Origin: Bacteroidia bacterium | Lineage (GTDB): Bacteria > Bacteroidota > Bacteroidia > JADZBD01 | Direction: 5' to 3' | DNA: 64,000 nucleotides | Assembly: GCA_020852255.1 (NCBI GenBank) | Contig: JADZBD010000003.1 | Coordinates: forward strand, 1 to 64,000 | In this document: one piece after another, positions 15,743 to 27,451 of the stretch | Layout: each line of letters starts with the position of its first letter | How positions within the stretch are numbered: position 1 is the stretch's first letter | Translations under genes and position numbers: made by a program | The notes under the pieces: generated by a model | Databases searched by the model: none | What the model was told of the DNA's origin: nothing | The model's input: only the letters and a program-made list of their open reading frames with translations

Positions 15743-15775
15743 TTGAGGGAATTTGACCTTCGTTGATTATCTTTG
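15743..15775 (+). promoter_or_regulatory. Promoter for the 15783 barrel/SPOR gene
   Basis: TATCTTTG at 15768-15775 matches TAnnTTTG, with TTG at 15743-15745 and a 22-nt spacer. It ends 7 nt before the ATG at 15783, so the mRNA should have almost no leader. Confidence 0.5.
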
Positions 15776-15782
15776 TAGTACG

Positions 15783-18059
15783 ATGTCGCCCGGTATTTTC
15801 TTACGGATATTGCCATTGCTTTGCATGTTCTCCGCTCACGCACAGGACAGCACAAGTCATTCCGGCTCCTCCCGTTTCCCGGTAACTTCAAAAGATTCTC
15901 TTCCACCGGTTGATTCCGGATTTATTTTCAAACCCGTGGTGGGAGCAGGAGTGGGAATGTTCACCTGGTATGGAGACATCAATAATAAAGCACTTGTTCT
16001 GCCGCAAACCTCCAGGATCGGATACGAACTGAGTCTTTCCCAGAACCTGAGTCCCGCCTTCAACCTCCGGCTGTGTGCACTCTTCGGACAAGTAGGTGCC
16101 AACGAACGCAGCATTGAACGAAACCTGAATTTCCAGAGTCATATCCGAATGGGAGGTTTGGCACTCACCTATAATTTTGATCATCTGCTGAAAGATACCC
16201 GCTCCACAGAACCTTGGATTTCCGTCGGATTTGAATCATTCGAGTTTTTATCTAAAACCGATTTATATGACCGGGCAGGGAACAGGTATTATTTCTGGTC
16301 CGACGGCTCCATCATGAATATGGACGAAAACGATCCCTTCGCTCCTACCGCCATTCCCCTTTCCCGCGATTATATTTATGAATCCGACATCCGCGAACTG
16401 AATCTGGACGGCTTCGGAAAATATCCAGAACGATCCTTCGCGTACACCGCCGGTGCAGGAATTAATCTCAAACTGCATAAGCAGATGATTATGAAACTGG
16501 GAGCAGTCTGGCATTTCACACTCACAGATTATGTGGATGGTGTTGCCGGGAACGGCACAGGCATCCGAAAAGGAGATGTGAAAAACGACCGCTTCCTTAT
16601 GTCGTCCGTCTCGCTGCATTATGAATTCAAACAGAAAAACCGGAAGGGAGGAAAAAACAATCCCGACTTCTCTGATGTTGATTGGTTTGCACTTGACATG
16701 GAAGACCGGGACGGCGACGGCGTAAAAGATCCGCAGGACTCCTGCCAGTTCACTCCCCCCGGAGTGGCCGTTGACAACAAAGGTTGTCCGCTGGACGGAG
16801 ATGAAGACCTTGTGCCAGACTACATGGATGAAGAAATGAACTCTGCTCCGGGAGCCATCGTGGATGAATACGGTGTAACCATTCCCGATTCCGTTCTTGA
16901 GAAACGCTGGCTGGTCTACTCTGATTCTACGGGTGAATTTATTGAGAGGAATGTTGTGATTCTTGCTACACAAAGCGTAGGAGGATTCGGCGGCATCACA
17001 CTTAAGAAACGGGAATTCACTGTGCAGGTAGCTCAATACAGCGGCGGAGTACCTCTGGAGATAATGGAAAAACTGCTGGGCATTTCTGATGTTAAATCAA
17101 ATATCCTTTCTGACTCCTCTACCGTTTACACTGCGGGCTCCTTTAATTCCATTGACGTGGCGAATCAGCGAAAAGAGGAAATAAAAAATACGGGCTTTAA
17201 AGACGCACGGGTAATTTATATTGAGAATGGAAAGATCTACGACCTTAACAAGGTTTACAAAGATCCATCACCCACTAATCCCACTAACCCTACTAACCCT
17301 ACTAACCCTACTAACCCTACTAACCCTACTAACCCTACTAACCCTACTAACCCTACTAACCCTACTAATCCTACTAACCCTACTAATCCCACTAACCCTA
17401 CTAATCCCACTAACCCTACTAACCCTACTAACCCTACCAATCCCGTTATACCTCCCGAATTGAATAAACCGGGTATTATTTACAGAGTTCAGATAGGTGC
17501 GTTAAAGACCAAGGTGTCTGCCTCCTCTTTCAATTCATCCGAGGGCGTGATTACTTTAAAAACTGAGAATGGCTATTATAAATATCTCACCGGCAGCTTC
17601 GACAACTTTGAAGATGCCAGTGTTTTGCGTAAAAAAATGATTGCAAACGGGTACAAAGATGCCTTTGTGGTTGTGTACAAAGACGGAAAGCGGGTAAGCC
17701 TGGAGAGTGTAGGAGTGAAGCAGCCAATGCAGCACACGAATGATCCAACGCCACCGGTGAATACCGACACTTCCAAAAAAGATAAGAGCAAAGTAGTTTT
17801 CCGGATACAGCTGGGAGTTTTTAAAGGAGAACCTCCTGCAGATGTTACTCAGCGGATCAACAAGGTACCGGGGGTGAGCAAACAGACCACCTCGTCGGGG
17901 TTAAACCAGTACCTGAGCGGTAATTATAACGATTACAAGGCCGCGCAGCTGTTCCGCGACGAGGTAATAGATAAATATGGTTTCAAGGATGCCTTTATCC
18001 TTGCCTTTTATGATAATCAGCTGATTTCCATTAAAGAAGCTCTTGATATATTGAAATAG
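15783..18059 (+). CDS. Outer-membrane barrel protein with thrombospondin-3-like motifs, three SPOR-like domains and a (PTN)19 linker
   Basis: 758 residues from 15783, chosen because it opens with a signal peptide (MSPGIFLRILPLLCMFSAHA) right after a promoter box. Residues about 45-285 are a predicted barrel paralogous to the 12860 product (GAGVGMFTWYGDI, YYFWSDGSI). Asp-rich calcium motifs follow (DRDGDGVKDPQDSC, DGDEDLVPDYMDEE, about 305-345). Three SPOR-like domains sit at about 413-490, 565-640 and 671-748 (VQVAQYSGG, RVQIGALKTK, RIQLGVFKGE; each ending KDAxVxxYxxGK or similar). Residues 497-553 are 19 perfect Pro-Thr-Asn units. A link between the outer membrane and peptidoglycan is plausible but inferred. 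Confidence 0.75.
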   Translation: MSPGIFLRILPLLCMFSAHAQDSTSHSGSSRFPVTSKDSLPPVDSGFIFKPVVGAGVGMFTWYGDINNKALVLPQTSRIGYELSLSQNLSPAFNLRLCALFGQVGANERSIERNLNFQSHIRMGGLALTYNFDHLLKDTRSTEPWISVGFESFEFLSKTDLYDRAGNRYYFWSDGSIMNMDENDPFAPTAIPLSRDYIYESDIRELNLDGFGKYPERSFAYTAGAGINLKLHKQMIMKLGAVWHFTLTDYVDGVAGNGTGIRKGDVKNDRFLMSSVSLHYEFKQKNRKGGKNNPDFSDVDWFALDMEDRDGDGVKDPQDSCQFTPPGVAVDNKGCPLDGDEDLVPDYMDEEMNSAPGAIVDEYGVTIPDSVLEKRWLVYSDSTGEFIERNVVILATQSVGGFGGITLKKREFTVQVAQYSGGVPLEIMEKLLGISDVKSNILSDSSTVYTAGSFNSIDVANQRKEEIKNTGFKDARVIYIENGKIYDLNKVYKDPSPTNPTNPTNPTNPTNPTNPTNPTNPTNPTNPTNPTNPTNPTNPTNPTNPTNPTNPTNPVIPPELNKPGIIYRVQIGALKTKVSASSFNSSEGVITLKTENGYYKYLTGSFDNFEDASVLRKKMIANGYKDAFVVVYKDGKRVSLESVGVKQPMQHTNDPTPPVNTDTSKKDKSKVVFRIQLGVFKGEPPADVTQRINKVPGVSKQTTSSGLNQYLSGNYNDYKAAQLFRDEVIDKYGFKDAFILAFYDNQLISIKEALDILK
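17271..17441 (+). repeat. 19 x 9-bp tandem repeat encoding (Pro-Thr-Asn)19
   Basis: Nineteen contiguous 9-bp units (mostly CCTACTAAC, with CCC/AAT variants at synonymous positions) run in frame through the 15783 gene. Gain or loss of units would leave the frame intact and change linker length by three residues. Near-identical units in the middle suggest slippage; the varied ends look older. Confidence 0.95.
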
Positions 18060-18162: not shown

Positions 18163-18456
18163 ATGAAAAAGACCGTACTTTTTTCCGCCCTGGCCTTCGG
18201 CCTCCTCTTCTCTGCAGAATCTTTTGCGCAGGATCCCACTGTGAAGCAAGACAACAAGGTGGTAAATCCCGAGAAGAAAGACGAGGAGAAGAATAAAGAG
18301 AAGAATACCACCGACCGCGGCACTTCCGAAAAAATGTCAATCGGAGAAGAAGGTGATTCCAATGACACGAAGAAAAAGAGCACCACCAGCGATGGTAAGA
18401 GCTCCAAAAATCCCGTGGTAACTCCGAATACTACCCGTAATCCCAAAAAGAACTGA
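18163..18456 (+). CDS. Small basic exported protein with IGEEG motif
   Basis: 97 residues: signal peptide (about 1-22, ending SFAQ) followed by a Lys/Asp/Glu/Asn-rich, probably disordered chain. I do not recognise a family. The segment MSIGEEGDSND recurs in variant form twice in the next gene. The stop overlaps the next ATG by one base (TGATG), indicating translational coupling. Function unknown; the charged repeat-like composition suits a periplasmic or surface scaffold, but that is only a guess. Confidence 0.6.
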   Translation: MKKTVLFSALAFGLLFSAESFAQDPTVKQDNKVVNPEKKDEEKNKEKNTTDRGTSEKMSIGEEGDSNDTKKKSTTSDGKSSKNPVVTPNTTRNPKKN

Positions 18457-18944
18457 TGATGTTCCGTATACTTCCGGCTCTGTTGGTTTTTCTATCCTTC
18501 TCCGCCTTCTCACAGGTGAAGTTCGGGGATGTGATCAGAGATACCAAAACGAAGGTGAATACGGTAAAAAATACAAAGCAAAAAGTTGATCCGATCGTTG
18601 AGAAGAAGGAAGAAACACCTCAGGAAACACCTCAGGACACCACCAAAAAAAAGAACGATCCGGTAAAAACAGACGGCCAGAAGACTGATAATCTGGCCAT
18701 AGGCGAAGAAGGCGACGAAAAGAACAAAGACGGTAAGGGCGGTAAAGTGAAGCAAAGCAAAGAATTTATTAAGGACTCCAAAGGATCTCCTAACGGAACC
18801 ACCACCCCGCCTCCCAGTGGTAATCTCGTGGATCCCAACAGCCAGAAGAAAAGCATGGCCATTGGAGATGAGGGCGCAGAGGATGAAAAGAAGAAGGGAA
18901 ACAAGTCAAAAAGCACCGATAATAACACGGTGAATCCAAAGTAA
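18456..18944 (+). CDS. Small charged exported protein with two IGEEG-type motifs
   Basis: 162 residues with a signal peptide (about 1-20, ending AFSQ). The mature chain is Lys/Asp/Thr/Pro-rich and likely disordered. It contains LAIGEEGDEKN (about residue 81) and MAIGDEGAEDE (about 130), matching MSIGEEGDSND in the preceding gene, and both proteins end in Asn-Pro-Lys-rich tails. The two look like relatives that arose by duplication and internal repeat growth. No family is recognised and no function is assigned. Confidence 0.6.
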   Translation: MMFRILPALLVFLSFSAFSQVKFGDVIRDTKTKVNTVKNTKQKVDPIVEKKEETPQETPQDTTKKKNDPVKTDGQKTDNLAIGEEGDEKNKDGKGGKVKQSKEFIKDSKGSPNGTTTPPPSGNLVDPNSQKKSMAIGDEGAEDEKKKGNKSKSTDNNTVNPK

Positions 18945-19039: not shown

Positions 19040-19414
19040 ATGAGCCGTAAAAACACCATCCTGATTGCAGAGGATGAGCCGATGATGCTCAAGGTGCTTG
19101 AATTTAAACTGAGGAAGGACGGATATGAAGTGATGACAGCCTCCAACGGTAAAGACGCTATTGAAAAAATTAAAAACACTCCTCCTGACCTGTTGATCAC
19201 CGACATGACCCTGCCCTTTTTCAACGGACTTGAGATCATTGATTATGTCAGGAAGAATGGCACCCCCCGGCTTCCTGTCATCATACTGACGGATGTGGAT
19301 AAAGAGGCGGTTATCCTGGAGGCGTTTAAGACCGGTGCAAATGATTTCATTACCAAGCCATTTTCTCCCAACGAACTTTCCATTCGCGTAAAGCGATACC
19401 TCTCCGAAGTCTGA
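19040..19414 (+). CDS. Receiver-only response regulator
   Basis: 124 residues forming a single CheY-like receiver domain. The acidic pocket (AEDE, residues 10-13), phospho-acceptor Asp55 (LLITDMTLP), switch Thr84 (VIILTD) and Lys106 (FITKPFSPNEL) are all present, so it should be phosphorylatable. There is no output domain, so it must act by binding a partner. It begins 8 nt upstream of the YaiO-type gene and is the first gene of a five-gene run; its partner kinase is not in the window. A role in switching the downstream glycosyltransferase or export machine is inferred from position. Confidence 0.9.
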   Translation: MSRKNTILIAEDEPMMLKVLEFKLRKDGYEVMTASNGKDAIEKIKNTPPDLLITDMTLPFFNGLEIIDYVRKNGTPRLPVIILTDVDKEAVILEAFKTGANDFITKPFSPNELSIRVKRYLSEV

Positions 19415-19422
19415 TCCCTCCT

Positions 19423-20736
19423 ATGCCTCGCTCTTTCAGGCGGATCACGCTGATCCTCTTTCTCTTTGTCACCTCTGCATATTCCCAGGATACTATCTTT
19501 TTCGATGTAGATAAGGTATTTGAAAGAGCGAGGAGATCGGCATTTACCGAAAAGAATAATCAGGATGCCAGAGATATTTGTAAAAAAATACTGGAAAAAC
19601 ATCCTGATTACCACGATGCCCGTGTACTGATTGCCAATACACTTTCCTGGGAACGGCGCTTTCAGGAAGCACGCGCCGAAATCATCAAAGTATTGGAGAA
19701 GAAACCCGAATACTACGATGCTGTAACTGTTCTGCTCAATATCGAATTCTGGTCGGGTAATCTTCGTGCCGCACTTCAGGTTGCTAACAAGGGAATTGAA
19801 CTTTTTCCGAATGAATATTACTTTAAACTCACCAAGGCAAAGATTCTGGATCAGCTGGAAGAATATGATGAAGCGCTGGTGCTGCTGGAAGAGTTGAAAA
19901 AACCGAAGAATAAGCCGGGTGGTGCAAACAGCGGGCAGACGGTATTACCTCCCGAGGACGTGATGAATGAGATTGACAAAATGATTCACGACATCGAGTT
20001 AAAGCGCAAGCGAAATCACGCCGGTGCAATGTATACCCTTGAATTGTTCAGCGATGTGTATGCCCCCCGACATCTGCTGGAACTCGAAGGCAAGCACCGC
20101 TTCGGAAAAACAACGGCCATCGTGCGGGGCTCTGCCGCTCAGCGTTTTGAACGCACCGGATTGATGGGAGAAGCGGATCTCTACTATAAGCTGAACAAAC
20201 TCACCTATCTGTATCTCAACGGCGGATTCAGCCCTTCTGCCATCTTTCCGAGGTTCCGGTCCGGCTTTGAGGTATATCGCCGTCTTCCGCGCAATATGGA
20301 CGCCTCCATCGGCTTGCGGTACCTTCATTTTGTACTCACCGGAACCGGAACTAAAGAAATTTTCATTCTAACCGGTTCTGTCGGCAAATACTATTCACAC
20401 TACTGGTTCGGATTGCGCCCCTTCATTACACCCCGCGGAACTGGAGCCGCTGTTTCTCTGCTGGCCCATGCCCGCCGATATCTACGGGATACAGAGAATC
20501 ATTTTACGCTAACAGCGGGTTACGGACTCACCCCCGACAACCGTGTTTTTCTGGGAGACAATCCGGAATTCTATCAGGTTAGTGCTCTCCGGCTGGGAGC
20601 GGATCTTCAAAAAGTTCTGGCCGATAATTATTTCCTTCTGGCAGGAATATGCTTTGAAACCCAACGCCTGAATAACCTGCCCGGCCTTACTATATTTGAT
20701 GGAGTTTTTCAACTGGGAATCCGATACCGCTTCTGA
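19423..20736 (+). CDS. TPR protein with YaiO-type outer-membrane beta-barrel
   Basis: 437 residues with a signal peptide (about 1-21, ending AYSQ). Residues about 25-175 are TPR repeats (ARDICKKILEKHPDYHDAR, AEIIKVLEKKPEYYDAV, EYDEALVLLEELKK). From about 200 to the final Phe is a barrel of the YaiO type, ending GVFQLGIRYRF with the terminal aromatic residue typical of outer-membrane proteins. TPR plus barrel is the same plan as exopolysaccharide exporters such as PgaA, BcsC and AlgK/AlgE. It overlaps the next gene by one base (TGATG). Export of the product of the downstream GT2 is the inferred role. Confidence 0.8.
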   Translation: MPRSFRRITLILFLFVTSAYSQDTIFFDVDKVFERARRSAFTEKNNQDARDICKKILEKHPDYHDARVLIANTLSWERRFQEARAEIIKVLEKKPEYYDAVTVLLNIEFWSGNLRAALQVANKGIELFPNEYYFKLTKAKILDQLEEYDEALVLLEELKKPKNKPGGANSGQTVLPPEDVMNEIDKMIHDIELKRKRNHAGAMYTLELFSDVYAPRHLLELEGKHRFGKTTAIVRGSAAQRFERTGLMGEADLYYKLNKLTYLYLNGGFSPSAIFPRFRSGFEVYRRLPRNMDASIGLRYLHFVLTGTGTKEIFILTGSVGKYYSHYWFGLRPFITPRGTGAAVSLLAHARRYLRDTENHFTLTAGYGLTPDNRVFLGDNPEFYQVSALRLGADLQKVLADNYFLLAGICFETQRLNNLPGLTIFDGVFQLGIRYRF

Positions 20737-22070
20737 TGAGAAAAATTATAAACATCCTCCTTCTTTCTGCCTGGGTTCTCCTGAGTTCCTGTGGCGGCAA
20801 TGCCGCTGAAGGCCATTATAAAACAACAGCCGGCAACCTGTTCGACGACACACAGGTGCATGAATTGCGTTTCTATTTCTACGACGAAAATGGATGGGAA
20901 AATCTCTACCGTAATAAAAAATTGCGGGACTCCCTGGAGATGACCCGTTATCTGCCCGTAAAAATTGTAATCGACAGCTTTAAGATCGACTCCGCCGGAC
21001 TGCGGTTCAAGGGCGAATCTTCCTTCCTCTACACGAAGGGAAACAAAAAGTCCTTCAAAGTTTCACTGGCCCGTTTCAGAAAAGAATCCTCCTATGGTAA
21101 GGTGCGAACCTTCAATCTGAACAACTGCTTCAAAGATCCCACCTTTCTGAGAGAAAAACTCATGCTTGATCTTCTCCGCGACCAGGGCCTGCCGGCACCC
21201 GCGTCTGCCTTTGTTAAAGTATACGTCAATGACGAATACCTCGGCCTTTATCTGGCAGTAGAAGAAATCGGAAAGCATTTCCTGGATACCCACTTCACCA
21301 ATCACGATGGTAACTTGTACCTGGGCGAACCGAATGCCCTGCTGCAGGACCTCGGTCCCGACCCCTCCGCGTACCAGAGAAAATATAAAAAGAAACGTAC
21401 CGGGAAGGATACCACCTATACGGACATTGCCTTATTTATCGGAGAATTGAACCGCGGGTTCAAAAAAAACAAGGACAAGAAGTACATGGAGCACCTCGAA
21501 AGCATCCTGAACACCGATCAGTTGCTGAAAACATGGGCCATCTGCAACTTGCTGGCCGACGCCGACGCTTTCAACATGATGTACAGGCATAACTACGCCC
21601 TCTACCATGAACCTTCCTCCGGAAAATGGCAGTGGGTAACATGGGATCATAATCTCGCCTTTGCTGCCTGGAATCCGAAATATACCCTGGAGCAGGTATA
21701 CACTCTTGCTCCGGACCACACGGAAGATTTCGAAGGAGAACATTTCCAGAAGAGGGTGCTGGGGAATTCCTACCTGAGAAAACGCTACCTACGCTACATG
21801 GCAGAGCTCGTAAAAGGTCCATTCTCCATTGACCGCCTGGGCGGAAAGATCGATCGCTGGGCCGTGATCATTCGACCGCATGTGGCGGCTGATTCGCTCA
21901 AAGCCTGCAGCACCGAAGATTTTGATAAGAATCTGCAGGATCACCTCGGAGATCCCACCGATCCGGGAGCGTTCACCCCGGGGCTTAAGTCTTTTATAAT
22001 AAAACGCCGTAACCACATTATCCGCGAACTGAAAAACCGGAAAATGTTTGATGCGGAACCAGAAGCCTGA
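20736..22070 (+). CDS. CotH-kinase family lipoprotein
   Basis: 444 residues. A lipoprotein signal (LLSAWVLLSSCGG; Cys at about 19) predicts anchoring in the membrane outside the cytoplasm. The body matches the CotH family: GLRFKGESSFLYTKGNKKSFKV (residues about 88-110), NLNNCFKDPTFLREKL, PASAFVKVYVNDEYLGLYL, and WVTWDHNLAFAAW (about 300). CotH proteins are atypical secreted kinases, shown to phosphorylate spore coat proteins in Bacillus, but they also occur widely in other bacteria with unknown substrates. It is coupled by TGATG junctions on both sides to the YaiO-type and HEAT genes. The substrate could be the neighbouring exported protein or a glycan; neither is shown. Confidence 0.82.
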   Translation: MRKIINILLLSAWVLLSSCGGNAAEGHYKTTAGNLFDDTQVHELRFYFYDENGWENLYRNKKLRDSLEMTRYLPVKIVIDSFKIDSAGLRFKGESSFLYTKGNKKSFKVSLARFRKESSYGKVRTFNLNNCFKDPTFLREKLMLDLLRDQGLPAPASAFVKVYVNDEYLGLYLAVEEIGKHFLDTHFTNHDGNLYLGEPNALLQDLGPDPSAYQRKYKKKRTGKDTTYTDIALFIGELNRGFKKNKDKKYMEHLESILNTDQLLKTWAICNLLADADAFNMMYRHNYALYHEPSSGKWQWVTWDHNLAFAAWNPKYTLEQVYTLAPDHTEDFEGEHFQKRVLGNSYLRKRYLRYMAELVKGPFSIDRLGGKIDRWAVIIRPHVAADSLKACSTEDFDKNLQDHLGDPTDPGAFTPGLKSFIIKRRNHIIRELKNRKMFDAEPEA

Positions 22071-23224
22071 TGTTCATGTGCACCGGTTCGATTCTTTTTA
22101 TACGTGATTTTTTCTTCGGGGCACAACAATTTGTTCCGCGGGAAATTTTACTGCTGGTTGCCATCACGCTGTGCTTTATTGTTCTTTCTGTCTTCTTTTT
22201 TCTCTTTATTATCTTTTCAAGGATCAGTAAAAACCGGAAGGAAAAACGGGTCGGAAAACTCCGGAAGAAATTTGAACTGCTCATTACATCCGTCATTTTT
22301 GATCCCGAAGACCTGAATCTGGAACAGCGCACCCAGCGCTATAAATTACTGGATCACTATAAAAGGAACTATCTCCGTACCTCTGAATCGCGACAGGTGC
22401 TTATTGATGAAATTCTTCATCTCTACCGCGATTTTACAGGCGCTCCTGCCCGTGCTCTCCGTCACCTGTACCTCTCTCTCAGCCTGTATAATGACTCTAT
22501 TCGTAAGCTGAAAGATCCGCGCTGGCATATTAAAACCAAAGGTGTGAAAGAACTCAGTGCGATGGAAGCAAAACAGGGCTATTCAAGAATATACCGGCTG
22601 GTCAATCATTCCAACCCTATTCTTCGCATGGAAGCTCAACTGGCATTAGTCAAAATAATGGATTTCCGCGCGCTTACATTCCTTGACGATACACGGTACC
22701 CTATCTCGGAATGGCAGCAGATCAACCTGCTGGGGGTAATGGCTTCACTGGACAGAAACATGAATCTGCCGGACATCAGCAAATGGCTGCGCTCCGCCAA
22801 TGAATCGGTGATCATTTTTACGCTCAAAATGATCTCCTATTTTTCTCTTATGAATCTCACTAAAGAAGTTACCCGGATGCTAAATCATCCCAGTCTCAAG
22901 GTAAGAAAGGCCGTAGTACAAACAATCGGAGACCTGGATGCCGCCTCCGCACTCGGCTTGCTGAAAAAAAGATTTTATAATTATGAGAAAGATTTTAAAC
23001 TGGCTGTGATCGGTGTTTCACGTAAGATCGCCATTGAAAAAGACTTCCCCTTTTTAGAGTTACAACTGCTGAGCGACGACCGGGATATCAGTCAGGCTAC
23101 CGCCTACGCACTGGCCGGAAATTCTGACTCAGGGCTGCAACTCCTGAAAGGAATTTATAGTACGTACGCCGACGAACATCTGAAAGGTATTATACGCAAC
23201 GCACTCCATGAAGCCGAATCATGA
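22070..23224 (+). CDS. Membrane-anchored HEAT-repeat protein
   Basis: 384 residues. One strong transmembrane segment (about 25-50) follows a short N-terminus, then a basic stretch (KNRKEKRVGKLRKK), which by the positive-inside rule places the rest in the cytoplasm. Residues about 130-380 are paired helices of HEAT type (HSNPILRMEAQLALVKIMD, HPSLKVRKAVVQTIGDLD, LSDDRDISQATAYAL). HEAT arrays are protein-binding scaffolds. The gene starts in a TGATG with CotH and ends in an ATGA with the GT2, so its product is likely made with them. It may dock the response regulator or hold the glycosyltransferase; this is inference. Confidence 0.75.
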   Translation: MFMCTGSILFIRDFFFGAQQFVPREILLLVAITLCFIVLSVFFFLFIIFSRISKNRKEKRVGKLRKKFELLITSVIFDPEDLNLEQRTQRYKLLDHYKRNYLRTSESRQVLIDEILHLYRDFTGAPARALRHLYLSLSLYNDSIRKLKDPRWHIKTKGVKELSAMEAKQGYSRIYRLVNHSNPILRMEAQLALVKIMDFRALTFLDDTRYPISEWQQINLLGVMASLDRNMNLPDISKWLRSANESVIIFTLKMISYFSLMNLTKEVTRMLNHPSLKVRKAVVQTIGDLDAASALGLLKKRFYNYEKDFKLAVIGVSRKIAIEKDFPFLELQLLSDDRDISQATAYALAGNSDSGLQLLKGIYSTYADEHLKGIIRNALHEAES

Positions 23225-24669
23225 TTGAGTTTTTCGACATATTATCCAACTTCTTTTATTACGGATTACTGGTGTATTCCTTCACACTGATCAGCTGCTA
23301 CCTTGTATTGGGAATCATGTCTATCCGCGAATCTGCCCTTTACATGCGCCGCCAGAGTTTTGTTGATTACAAAGCCATCTCGAATTCTCCCATTTCCCCG
23401 TCCATCTCCATTATAGCTCCTGCGTACAACGAGGGCCGAACCATCACCGAGAATGTGAAATCGCTGCTATCGATACGCTATAGTAATTATGAAGTGATTG
23501 TAGTGAATGATGGCAGTAAAGATGATTCCATGCAGAAGCTGATTCAGGCCTATGCACTTGAAAAATTTCCTTATGCCTATGAAGAACAGTTAAACACAGA
23601 ACAAGTCAGGGCGGTGTACCGGTCCAGGAACCCGATCTACAGTAAACTATTGGTAGTGGACAAGGAAAACGGTGGAAAAAGCGATGCCCTTAATGCCGGT
23701 TTGAATATTTCGCGGAATAAATATGTTGCCTGCGTAGATGTGGACTGCATTCTGGAGCAGGATTCGCTGCTGAAGATGGTAAAACCATTTTTGGATGATG
23801 GTGAAGGCCGGGTGATTGCAACAGGAGGGGTGGTGCGCATTGCCAATTCCTGCGTGGTACAGGATGGGAGACTGGTAAAAGTGAACTTGCCGAAAAAGTT
23901 ACTTCCCAGAGTACAAACATTGGAATACATACGTGCGTTTTTACTGGGGAGGATGGCCTGGAGCAAAATGAACGGATTGCTGTTGATTTCAGGAGCCTTC
24001 GGTTTATTCGATAAACGCATTTGTATTGATTGCGGCGGATACAACACAGCAACCGTAGGAGAAGATATGGAACTGGTTGTTCGCATGCGGCGTTATATGC
24101 ATGCCATGAAACAGCCCTATAAAGTGATTTACATTCCTGATCCCTTGTGCTGGACCGAAGCGCCGGACACGTATAAAATTCTTGCCCGGCAGCGGAACCG
24201 GTGGACCCGCGGTACGGCTGAAACCTTGTGGCTGCATAAAAAACTTTTCTTTAACCCTTCTCACGGATTCCTGGGAATGATCAGCTATCCGTACTGGTTC
24301 CTCTTTGAATGGCTTGCACCCATTGTAGAATTCTTCGGGATCCTCTACTTCTTTTTCCTTGCCCTGCTGGGATACGTAAACTGGCCCTTCTTCCTGGCCT
24401 TGCTGGCCATGGTGTATTCCTTCGCGATCATGTTTTCAATTTTCGCCCTGGTTTCAGAAGAACTGACCTACCATCAGTACAAAAAGAAAAGCGACATCTT
24501 CAAACTCATCCTTACCGGTATGCTGGAACCGGTGCTTTTCCACCCGTGGTCCGTTTGGAACGCTATTCTGGGAAATGTTGATCTGCTCACCGGCCGGAAG
24601 TCGTGGGGCGAAATGACACGGAAAGGATTTCACAGGAAAGAACCGACGAAGGTGGTAACTCCCGTTTGA
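23221..24669 (+). CDS. Membrane GT2 glycosyltransferase (processive polysaccharide synthase type)
   Basis: 482 residues. A transmembrane segment (about 10-35) precedes a GT-A domain with APAYNEG (about 64), VVNDGSKDD (about 94), the DxD motif VDVDC (about 172), GED (about 280) and RQRNRW (about 322; the QxxRW motif of processive synthases such as cellulose, hyaluronan and poly-GlcNAc synthases). Three to four membrane segments close the protein (about 360-435). The sugar cannot be read from the sequence; the closest architecture I know is PgaC/IcaA-like. It is the last gene of the operon and overlaps the HEAT gene by 4 nt. Confidence 0.85.
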   Translation: MIEFFDILSNFFYYGLLVYSFTLISCYLVLGIMSIRESALYMRRQSFVDYKAISNSPISPSISIIAPAYNEGRTITENVKSLLSIRYSNYEVIVVNDGSKDDSMQKLIQAYALEKFPYAYEEQLNTEQVRAVYRSRNPIYSKLLVVDKENGGKSDALNAGLNISRNKYVACVDVDCILEQDSLLKMVKPFLDDGEGRVIATGGVVRIANSCVVQDGRLVKVNLPKKLLPRVQTLEYIRAFLLGRMAWSKMNGLLLISGAFGLFDKRICIDCGGYNTATVGEDMELVVRMRRYMHAMKQPYKVIYIPDPLCWTEAPDTYKILARQRNRWTRGTAETLWLHKKLFFNPSHGFLGMISYPYWFLFEWLAPIVEFFGILYFFFLALLGYVNWPFFLALLAMVYSFAIMFSIFALVSEELTYHQYKKKSDIFKLILTGMLEPVLFHPWSVWNAILGNVDLLTGRKSWGEMTRKGFHRKEPTKVVTPV

Positions 24670-24757: not shown

Positions 24758-27451
24758 TTACTCCGCTTTTCTTGTTTCCGCCGAAAATTTGATCAGCACT
24801 TCACTTCCCACGCCTTTACTCTCCTCTCCTACCTTGAACGAGGTACGGTCGATCCTGCACTCTCCTTCAAATGTGAAAATGCTCGGCTTCCCCTCACGCC
24901 TGGCCTCTCCCACATAATTAAAGTACACATCCACGGGAAGCCGGATGCCGCGCATTGTAAGACTTCCGGAAGTTTTATAACGGAAACTCGGATTTTCAGA
25001 AGCCAGTACCCCTTTAGAACTAAATGTAATACTCGGAAAACTGTCCGCTGCAAAATAATCAGACTTGAGCAAATGATCGTCGCGGTCCTTATTCTGTGTG
25101 TTGATTGTACGAACCGAAAGAACGAGGTCTACTGAGGAAGTGGAAGGATCACCGGTAAAATGAACAATGCCCGAATCCAGCGAGATTGTTCCCTTGGCGT
25201 TGGAAAGCCAGTGGCGTACGTTGAATTCAACGAACGCGTGGGAACCATCGAACGCATACATTCCGCTGAGTGAATCGATGGCGGCGCCCGGTAACACAAC
25301 AGTGGAATGATCATGCCCCTTATGCTCCTCCTCGCCCGCGGAAACCACCGCAATATGTGGTGCAATCACAAGTGAAACAATAGACATGAGTTTGATTAGA
25401 ATGTTCATTGACGGACCTGAAGTATCCTTAAAGGGATCTCCTACGGTATCGCCGGTTACAGCGGCCTTGTGAGGTTCAGATCCCTTGTAAAAAGTCTGAC
25501 CGTTGATCTCTACTCCTTTCTCAAATGATTTCTTGGCATTATCCCATGCGCCGCCTGCATTGCTTTGAAACATTCCCATCAGTACGCCGGATACCGTAAC
25601 GCCTGCCAACAGACCTCCCAGCACTTCCGGACCAAATGCAAATCCTACAATCACCGGTGTGATAAGAGCAATCAATCCCGGGGCGATCATCTCACGAATC
25701 GAAGCCTGCGTTGATATGGCCACGCACTTCTCATATTCCGGCTTGGCCTTGTATTCCATAATACCGGGTATCTCCCGAAACTGCCGGCGGACCTCATTCA
25801 CCATCGCCATGGCCGCTCTTCCCACCGCAGCAATGGCCAGCGAAGAAAAAATGAAAGGTATCACCGCGCCAATAAACAATCCGGCCAGTACATCGGCTTT
25901 GTATATGTCGATATGACTGATTCCTGCTACTCCAACGAATGCCGCAAAGAGAGCCAGTGAGGTCAGCGCCGCAGATGCAATGGCAAATCCCTTCCCCGTT
26001 GCGGCAGTTGTATTTCCCACTGCATCCAGATTGTCGGTTCTGCCCCGCACTTCCTTCGGAAGCCCTGACATTTCCGCAATGCCTCCGGCATTATCGGCAA
26101 TCGGGCCAAATGCATCAATAGCCAGCTGCATTGCAGTAGTGGCCATCATGCCAGCTGCAGCAATGGATACTCCATACAGACCGGCAAAGTAATGCGACAC
26201 ATAAATTCCGGCGGCCAATACAATGACCGGGATAAGTGTTGACTCCATTCCAACTGCCAGACCACCGATCACGTTGGTAGCATGTCCGGTAGATGACTGC
26301 CGCACGATGCTGCTCACCGGACGCTTGCCAATGGCAGTATAATACTCTGTGATGAAACTCATCAGCGTTCCCACCACCAGGCCGGTGATAATTGCGTAGA
26401 AAATTCCATTTGCTGTGATAATGCTTCCGTCCCGGATAAATGTGAGATCCGCAGGAATCATCCACTGCACTACAAAATAAGAAGCAATTGCGGTGAAGAT
26501 GATGGACGACCAGTTCCCCATATTCAAGGCATTTTGCACACTGGAGTTCTCTCCCTTGATGCGTACAAAAAAAGTTCCCACAACAGAGAACACCAGCCCC
26601 AGTCCTGCAATCACCATCGGAAGCAAAATGGGCCCCATCCCGCCAAACTGATCTTTTGCCTCTATTTCAATTCCCAGAATCATGGTGGCCAGGATGGTGG
26701 CAACATAGGACCCGAAAAGATCTGCGCCCATACCTGCCACATCACCTACGTTATCACCTACGTTATCTGCAATGGTAGCGGGGTTGCGAACATCATCCTC
26801 CGGTATGCCGGCCTCCACTTTTCCAACCAGGTCAGCGCCAACGTCTGCCGCTTTCGTATATATTCCGCCACCCACACGTGCAAACAAGGCTATGGATTCA
26901 GCACCAAGCGAAAAGCCGGCAAGCACTTCAATTGCCGTACGCATGCTCGATCCTGTAACAGCATCGCCGGGTGCAACAAACATATTTGTCAGAACAATAA
27001 AGAGTCCACCCAAACCAAGAACAGCCAAACCTGCTACCCCTAATCCCATTACCGTTCCTCCGTTAAAAGAAACAGCAAGCGCTTTAGCAAGCGAAGTTCT
27101 GGCAGCGTGTGCGGTTCGCACATTGGCCTTGGTGGCGATCTTCATCCCGATGTAACCTGCCAATGCAGAGAACACAGCTCCAATCACAAAGGCAATGGCT
27201 ATTACCGGACTTGAGTGTTCCACCAACGTGCCCGACCATCCCAACAGCACTGCCGCAACAGCCGCGAAAACTCCCAGTATCTTCCATTCCGCTTTTAAAA
27301 ATGCCAGCGCTCCGGCAGCAATATAGCCTGCGAGCTCCTGCATTTTGCTATCGCCGGCCTCCTGCCTGCTTACCCATGCAGACTTAAGACCCATAATAAG
27401 AAGCCCAAAAAGACCAACGGCCGGTACAAGGTAAATCACGATTTCATTCAT
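24758..27451 (-). CDS. hppA: Membrane-bound pyrophosphatase fused to a C-terminal YceI domain
   Basis: 897 residues. Residues about 1-703 are a complete membrane pyrophosphatase, which pumps H+ and/or Na+ using PPi hydrolysis: many transmembrane helices, the PPi/Mg site [19 protein letters not shown] (about 228), GGAWDNAKK (about 635), and [10 protein letters not shown] (about 483), whose Ala marks the K+-dependent class. A short His/Glu-rich linker ([10 protein letters not shown], about 707-716) leads to a YceI lipocalin-like domain (about 720-897; [43 protein letters not shown]-like and IDRTSFKVG). YceI proteins are periplasmic and bind isoprenoid lipids; the pump's C-terminus faces the same side, so the topology is consistent. 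H+ versus Na+ cannot be decided here. Confidence 0.93.

Follow-up and report, generated by a model that had tools for sequence, protein, structure and literature searches.

How might a bacterium control the synthesis of an exported polysaccharide when its genome holds no enzymes for cyclic di-GMP (c-di-GMP), which does the work of switching the synthase on or off in the Pga, Bcs and Nfr systems? The question is raised by a five-gene locus in a Bacteroidia bacterium (assembly GCA_020852255.1), lying in the window, by which we mean the whole stretch of 64,000 nucleotides that was analysed (contig JADZBD010000003.1). The locus encodes a response regulator (RR), a YaiO-type exporter, a CotH-type kinase, a HEAT-repeat protein and a glycosyltransferase family 2 (GT2) synthase (table 1). 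A search for GGDEF proteins found none in this genome, and was positive in 8 of 14 control genomes. We found that the RR, YaiO, HEAT and GT2 genes form a conserved four-gene module that recurs across Bacteroidota, and that CotH is a lineage-specific add-on to this module, not part of its core. On balance, we favour reading the locus as a c-di-GMP-independent, synthase-dependent exopolysaccharide operon, in which the receiver probably acts through the HEAT protein and CotH would modify the polymer, or a partner, with phosphate in the periplasm.

The preliminary description of this DNA had proposed one operon of five overlapping genes. The open reading frame (ORF) coordinates, spacing and Pfam domains confirm that the genes are real and read together, with a gap of 8 nt between the first two followed by overlaps of 1, 1 and 4 nt. 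Because a convergent gene follows downstream (24758-27451) and the gene upstream stops 95 nt short of the receiver gene, these five genes are the unit.

Table 1. Genes of the operon in the window, and the unlinked gene for the additional partner C5 in the same genome.
Feature	Position	Strand	Supporting match
Single-domain response regulator, receiver only, 124 aa; predicted input switch	19040..19414	+	Pfam Response_reg 8.4e-30
YaiO-type exporter, 437 aa; signal peptide, TPR repeats, C-terminal outer-membrane beta-barrel	19423..20736	+	Pfam YaiO PF19413 4e-48
CotH-type kinase, 444 aa; predicted lipoprotein (LLSSC|GG), periplasmic side	20736..22070	+	Pfam CotH 9e-61
Inner-membrane HEAT-repeat protein, 384 aa; one N-terminal transmembrane helix	22070..23224	+	Pfam HEAT_2 3.6e-11
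Membrane-embedded GT2 polysaccharide synthase, 482 aa	23221..24669	+	Pfam Glycos_transf_2 2.4e-23
Unlinked C5 gene of this genome	G000:C9:88481-89695		

Orthologs of the GT2 (E<=1e-40) were present in 55 of 395 sampled Bacteroidia genomes and HEAT orthologs in 51, with the GT2 almost always adjacent; the ortholog search found neither in a sister genome of the same family (G001). Using profiles iterated from the window proteins, we mapped the genes of 60 neighbourhoods taken from whole genomes and of a further 80 found in GTDB genomes retrieved with a GT2 alignment. Because this second group comprises the top GT2 matches alone, the sample is biased towards close relatives; the group spans Pontibacter, Rufibacter, Mucilaginibacter, Pedobacter, Chitinophaga and Flavobacterium, including F. 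johnsoniae, among others. In F. johnsoniae (L226) the gene order is hybrid kinase-RR-YaiO-HEAT-GT2. In the 117 non-redundant loci with sufficient flanks, HEAT was always linked to the GT2 (that is, within five genes of it), as were a small receiver in 103 loci and YaiO in 102. Of the 98 loci covered in full, 95 have HEAT directly before the GT2; measured over 131 loci, the median distance between the two genes is -1 nt.

The full window order, RR-YaiO-CotH-HEAT-GT2, was found again in L078, L079, L080 and L083. The preliminary description had allowed that the GT2 and YaiO proteins might each pair with other partners elsewhere, or that the locus might match a named exopolysaccharide system; HEAT and RR instead stay their partners across Bacteroidota, and no named locus was matched. 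All five genes as a fixed set had to be rejected, CotH being missing from the large majority of loci (present in 6 of the 117). Other additions were seen, with a deacetylase-like protein between YaiO and HEAT in L089 and a linked DUF4838 protein in several other loci. We searched the open-licence literature for YaiO together with HEAT, and for HEAT together with GT2, in Bacteroidota; no description of the module came up. In the papers searched, neither this RR-HEAT-GT2-YaiO module nor the exchange between LtaS-like and CotH enzymes that we report below appears to have been described. We further noticed a second, diverged system of GT2 and TPR protein without HEAT in L128-L131; its L129 version also includes a polysaccharide deacetylase, as well as a protein bearing a GH42M-like domain.

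The GT2 carries the processive-type motifs (D, DxD, ED, QxxRW) that are general to synthase-dependent exopolysaccharide systems, and N96-D97-G98, D173-x-D175, E281-D282 and Q324-R-N-R327-W328 were invariant in 17 homologs. The TPR scaffold and outer-membrane beta-barrel of such systems are also present, here in one protein, which scores well above the cut-offs of the YaiO family (Pfam 164.1 bits against a curated 23.9; TIGR04390 125.5 bits against 32). From these features we infer that the GT2/YaiO product is an exported polymer. A Pfam scan of the GT2 revealed neither PilZ nor MshEN. With no PgaB among the five genes and no BcsB at the locus, the usual partners are absent, as had been proposed from the outset.

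By family tests, the locus resembles the Pga, Bcs and Nfr systems in its working, yet is a member of none. It shares a TPR/barrel exporter with the poly-N-acetylglucosamine system PgaABCD, and its GT2 is 28% identical to PgaC over 276 aa (E 2e-29), with PgaC as the best NCBIfam model. It has a HEAT protein and a receiver in place of PgaB and PgaD, however, and falls below the model cut-offs for PgaC (135.6 bits against 422.3) and PgaA (21.1 against 366.65). Type II cellulose synthesis in E. coli depends on c-di-GMP through BcsA/BcsB, whereas the window locus has CotH and lacks PilZ and BcsB; the CelA model scored 39.8 against 699.1. The E. coli NfrB-NfrA-YbcH (NGR) system likewise combines an inner-membrane GT2 with QxxRW, an outer-membrane TPR/barrel protein and a small membrane-anchored periplasmic protein (PMC8669469), but is without HEAT or receiver. 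Its proteins carry MshEN and NfrA_C, neither of which occurs in the window proteins, NfrA having NfrA_C and not YaiO, and its similarity to the window GT2 is negligible (E 0.001). Finally, E. coli yaiO-yaiP-yaiS also encodes a YaiO barrel, close to a GT2 and to a putative deacetylase. This barrel is without TPR, the locus lacks HEAT, receiver and CotH, and YaiP is 25% identical to the window GT2 in alignment.

Alternatively, GT2/YaiO could make and place a glycan that is not secreted as an exopolysaccharide but is retained at the envelope (attached to a lipid or protein, for instance) or supports gliding. The product of this GT2 clade was not found in our searches, the nearest NCBIfam models score far under their cut-offs, and C5, a further partner described below, is without a characterised homolog. 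We nevertheless consider this improbable, since the processive motifs including QxxRW, the membrane-embedded synthase and the TPR/barrel partner are features of synthase-dependent secretion.

The CotH protein scores 206.6 bits against the Pfam family (cut-off 23.8) and matches the CotH crystal structure 5jd9 (5.7e-17). Its D277 and D304 align with both catalytic Asp residues (D228 and D251 in B. subtilis), whose roles are described in PMC7821199, and neither varies across the 7 operon CotH proteins that were aligned. Its earlier description as a secreted kinase lipoprotein does not extend to all operon copies: a lipobox can be made out in the window protein and in L072 alone, and the remaining CotH proteins carry ordinary signal peptides or, in L082, no clear one. 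Operon-linked CotH was found only in this genome and seven others. In the six mapped loci besides the window (L072, L078, L079, L080, L082 and L083), it is always immediately upstream of HEAT and follows YaiO, except in L082, where YaiO and RR are located past the GT2, on the opposite strand. The seventh copy (genome G294) is at a contig end, beside a split HEAT gene. On the GT2 tree the CotH rows need 3 changes with weak support, and the linkage may have a single origin.

Ranked by match to the window CotH across the 395 genomes, these seven linked proteins take the first seven places (262-353 bits); the eighth follows closely (255 bits) and is from a genome without a detected GT2 ortholog. 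When the phylum was searched with a CotH profile, no match outside this genome came close to the operon copies. That CotH is a chance insertion without a role in a conserved four-gene operon might be argued from its presence in only about 8 module-bearing genomes and from the 11 CotH genes of this genome. We regard this as very improbable indeed, given that in at least four families CotH holds one fixed place ahead of HEAT, that the frames overlap in the window, that its catalytic residues are kept and that, among the 395 genomes, the window CotH finds its best matches in the operon copies.

Two of the CotH paralogs in this genome carry a type IX secretion system (T9SS) sorting tail and lie near a VTC polyphosphate polymerase gene. 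The operon CotH has neither this tail nor this neighbour, and its lack of the tail, unlike the two paralogs, fits retention in the periplasm. A CotH gene beside a synthase-dependent exopolysaccharide operon is not new in itself: in Gram-positive bacteria, a CotH-type kinase gene is contiguous with Pel clusters (PMC7112168, PMC12345266), with cotH an accessory of streptococcal, clostridial and bifidobacterial clusters (PMC7112168). Those clusters differ in having Pel synthase genes, no outer membrane, no HEAT or receiver, and a polyphosphate polymerase alongside CotH. The region with the two T9SS-tailed CotH genes and the nearby VTC gene (L261, 4314-10718; G000:C2) echoes this Gram-positive set of cotH and polyphosphate polymerase.

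Most loci with an identifiable modifying enzyme carried an LtaS/OpgB-like transferase and not CotH. These proteins (Pfam Sulfatase superfamily, with a hydrophobic N-terminus) were encoded near the GT2 on the same strand in 34 of 117 loci, usually immediately after it, and in 19 were fused to it in one chain of about 1,130-1,260 aa with both domains detected; CotH accounted for 6 loci, and neither was recognised in 58. Linked LtaS-like and CotH genes never occurred together. The LtaS-like proteins match VP1736 and lipoteichoic acid (LTA) synthase structures and have a conserved GRTF motif, with Thr in the region of the LtaS nucleophile. This makes a phospho-group transferase more likely than a true sulfatase, and no CxPxR motif was seen in them. 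A comparable arrangement exists in E. coli cellulose synthesis, where BcsG, a phosphotransferase of the alkaline phosphatase superfamily, docks on the synthase and adds phosphoethanolamine to nascent cellulose (PMC11470070). By likeness to BcsG and the LtaS-like partners, CotH would be a periplasmic enzyme whose target is the polymer or a partner.

The phospho-acceptor D55 was conserved in 97% and K106 in 100% of 100 same-position operon receivers, with E11/D12 also conserved. In the HEAT protein, the single transmembrane helix is directly followed by a basic stretch (RISKNRKEKR), so that the repeats should be cytoplasmic and the domain is predicted to be membrane-anchored on that side. The HEAT protein of L084 has a LysM domain ahead of the repeats. 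The phosphorylated receiver probably acts on the GT2 through HEAT. The phosphorelay suggested in the preliminary description is plausible, as a hybrid histidine kinase often lies upstream of the module in relatives (for example, 819 aa with HisKA-HATPase-REC-REC-Hpt in L078), but no histidine kinase is next to the window operon.

In the reading we favour, the GT2 would polymerise a sugar nucleotide and extrude the chain across the inner membrane, and YaiO, with its TPR scaffold and barrel, would take it out. HEAT would be a cytoplasmic adaptor in contact with the GT2, to which the phosphorylated receiver would bind, turning the synthase on or off. CotH would place phosphate on the emerging polymer or a protein partner, filling the niche held by the LtaS/OpgB-like transferase in many relatives. 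Along with the missing kinase neighbour, several points weigh against this. Free ATP is not expected in the periplasm, which makes the phosphate donor of CotH the main weakness, and characterised CotH kinases phosphorylate proteins, not glycans. The single-sequence structure prediction of HEAT, the proposed contact of the receiver, was unusable (pLDDT 48). The exclusivity of LtaS-like and CotH genes is statistically weak (Fisher p 0.03, with non-independent loci). G047, one of the CotH genomes, encodes an LtaS-like ortholog at an unlinked site; the remaining seven encode only distant members of the superfamily. The 58 loci without a recognised phospho-modifying enzyme nearby indicate, moreover, that phospho-modification is not essential to the core.

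The same polysaccharide operon could also contain CotH as a protein kinase that acts on an envelope protein (the YaiO TPR, C5 or a matrix protein) and thereby regulates export. Characterised CotH kinases target serine-rich proteins (PMC7821199), and protein phosphorylation by CotH was proposed to regulate Pel in bacteria without c-di-GMP (PMC7112168). In Streptococcus intermedius, deletion of the CotH-domain gene SIR_1594 of the Pel cluster lowers Pel and aggregation, Pel being reduced and not abolished (PMC12345266). Most identifiable phospho-modifying enzymes of the module are, however, LtaS/OpgB-like and often synthase-fused, and known relatives of these modify glycans or lipids. By this analogy only, a glycan target is favoured, and we give the protein-kinase alternative perhaps one chance in a handful or slightly better.

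A sixth partner, C5, belongs to an unannotated family of about 390 aa with one transmembrane helix and a periplasmic domain. Of the 117 loci, 43 have a linked C5 gene. All eight CotH genomes encode the protein; the sister genome G001, where the operon is missing, does not. No PDB sequence matched it. The AlphaFold2 model was confident (pLDDT 86). With modest TM-scores only, its fold is GATase/ThuA-like and akin to GH42 domains as well as to two carbohydrate deacetylases, Agd3 and NDST1; our guess is that C5 may handle the polymer. In this genome, the unlinked C5 gene (L134, 9248-11906; G000:C9) overlaps an upstream 244-aa ORF that has a GH16-like GEIDIEYS motif and no Pfam match, and is followed by a TPR lipoprotein gene.

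Directly upstream of the operon (18163-18944) are two small secreted ORFs rich in Ser/Thr/Lys/Asp that have in common a repeated [LMA]xIGEEGD-like motif. They are possibly disordered exported proteins and could conceivably be CotH substrates; a search of the genome turned up nothing related to the second ORF at any other site. Before them, a SPOR-domain protein (15753-18059) has an extended Thr-Asn-Pro repeat, (TNP)n, which in a shifted frame also reads as a long ORF. The convergent gene downstream (minus strand) encodes a membrane pyrophosphatase of 897 aa whose C-terminus, as read from the sequence, resembles a YceI-type domain, an unusual fusion.

Bacteroidota dominate many gut, soil and aquatic biofilms, and the module makes testable the question of how polymer is controlled in a genome without c-di-GMP enzymes. 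Its hosts include Flavobacterium johnsoniae and relatives of Pedobacter, Mucilaginibacter and Chitinophaga, some of them genetically tractable. A wider generalisation, which we hold only tentatively and think unlikely as a whole, is that of a widespread c-di-GMP-independent exopolysaccharide class in which a receiver controls the synthase via HEAT and the polymer is decorated with phosphate by interchangeable enzymes, either LtaS-like and often synthase-fused or, in this lineage, a CotH glycan kinase. If true, a conserved unit of receiver, HEAT and synthase would represent a new logic of control, and decoration of the polymer with phosphate by swappable enzymes would extend the idea established with BcsG.
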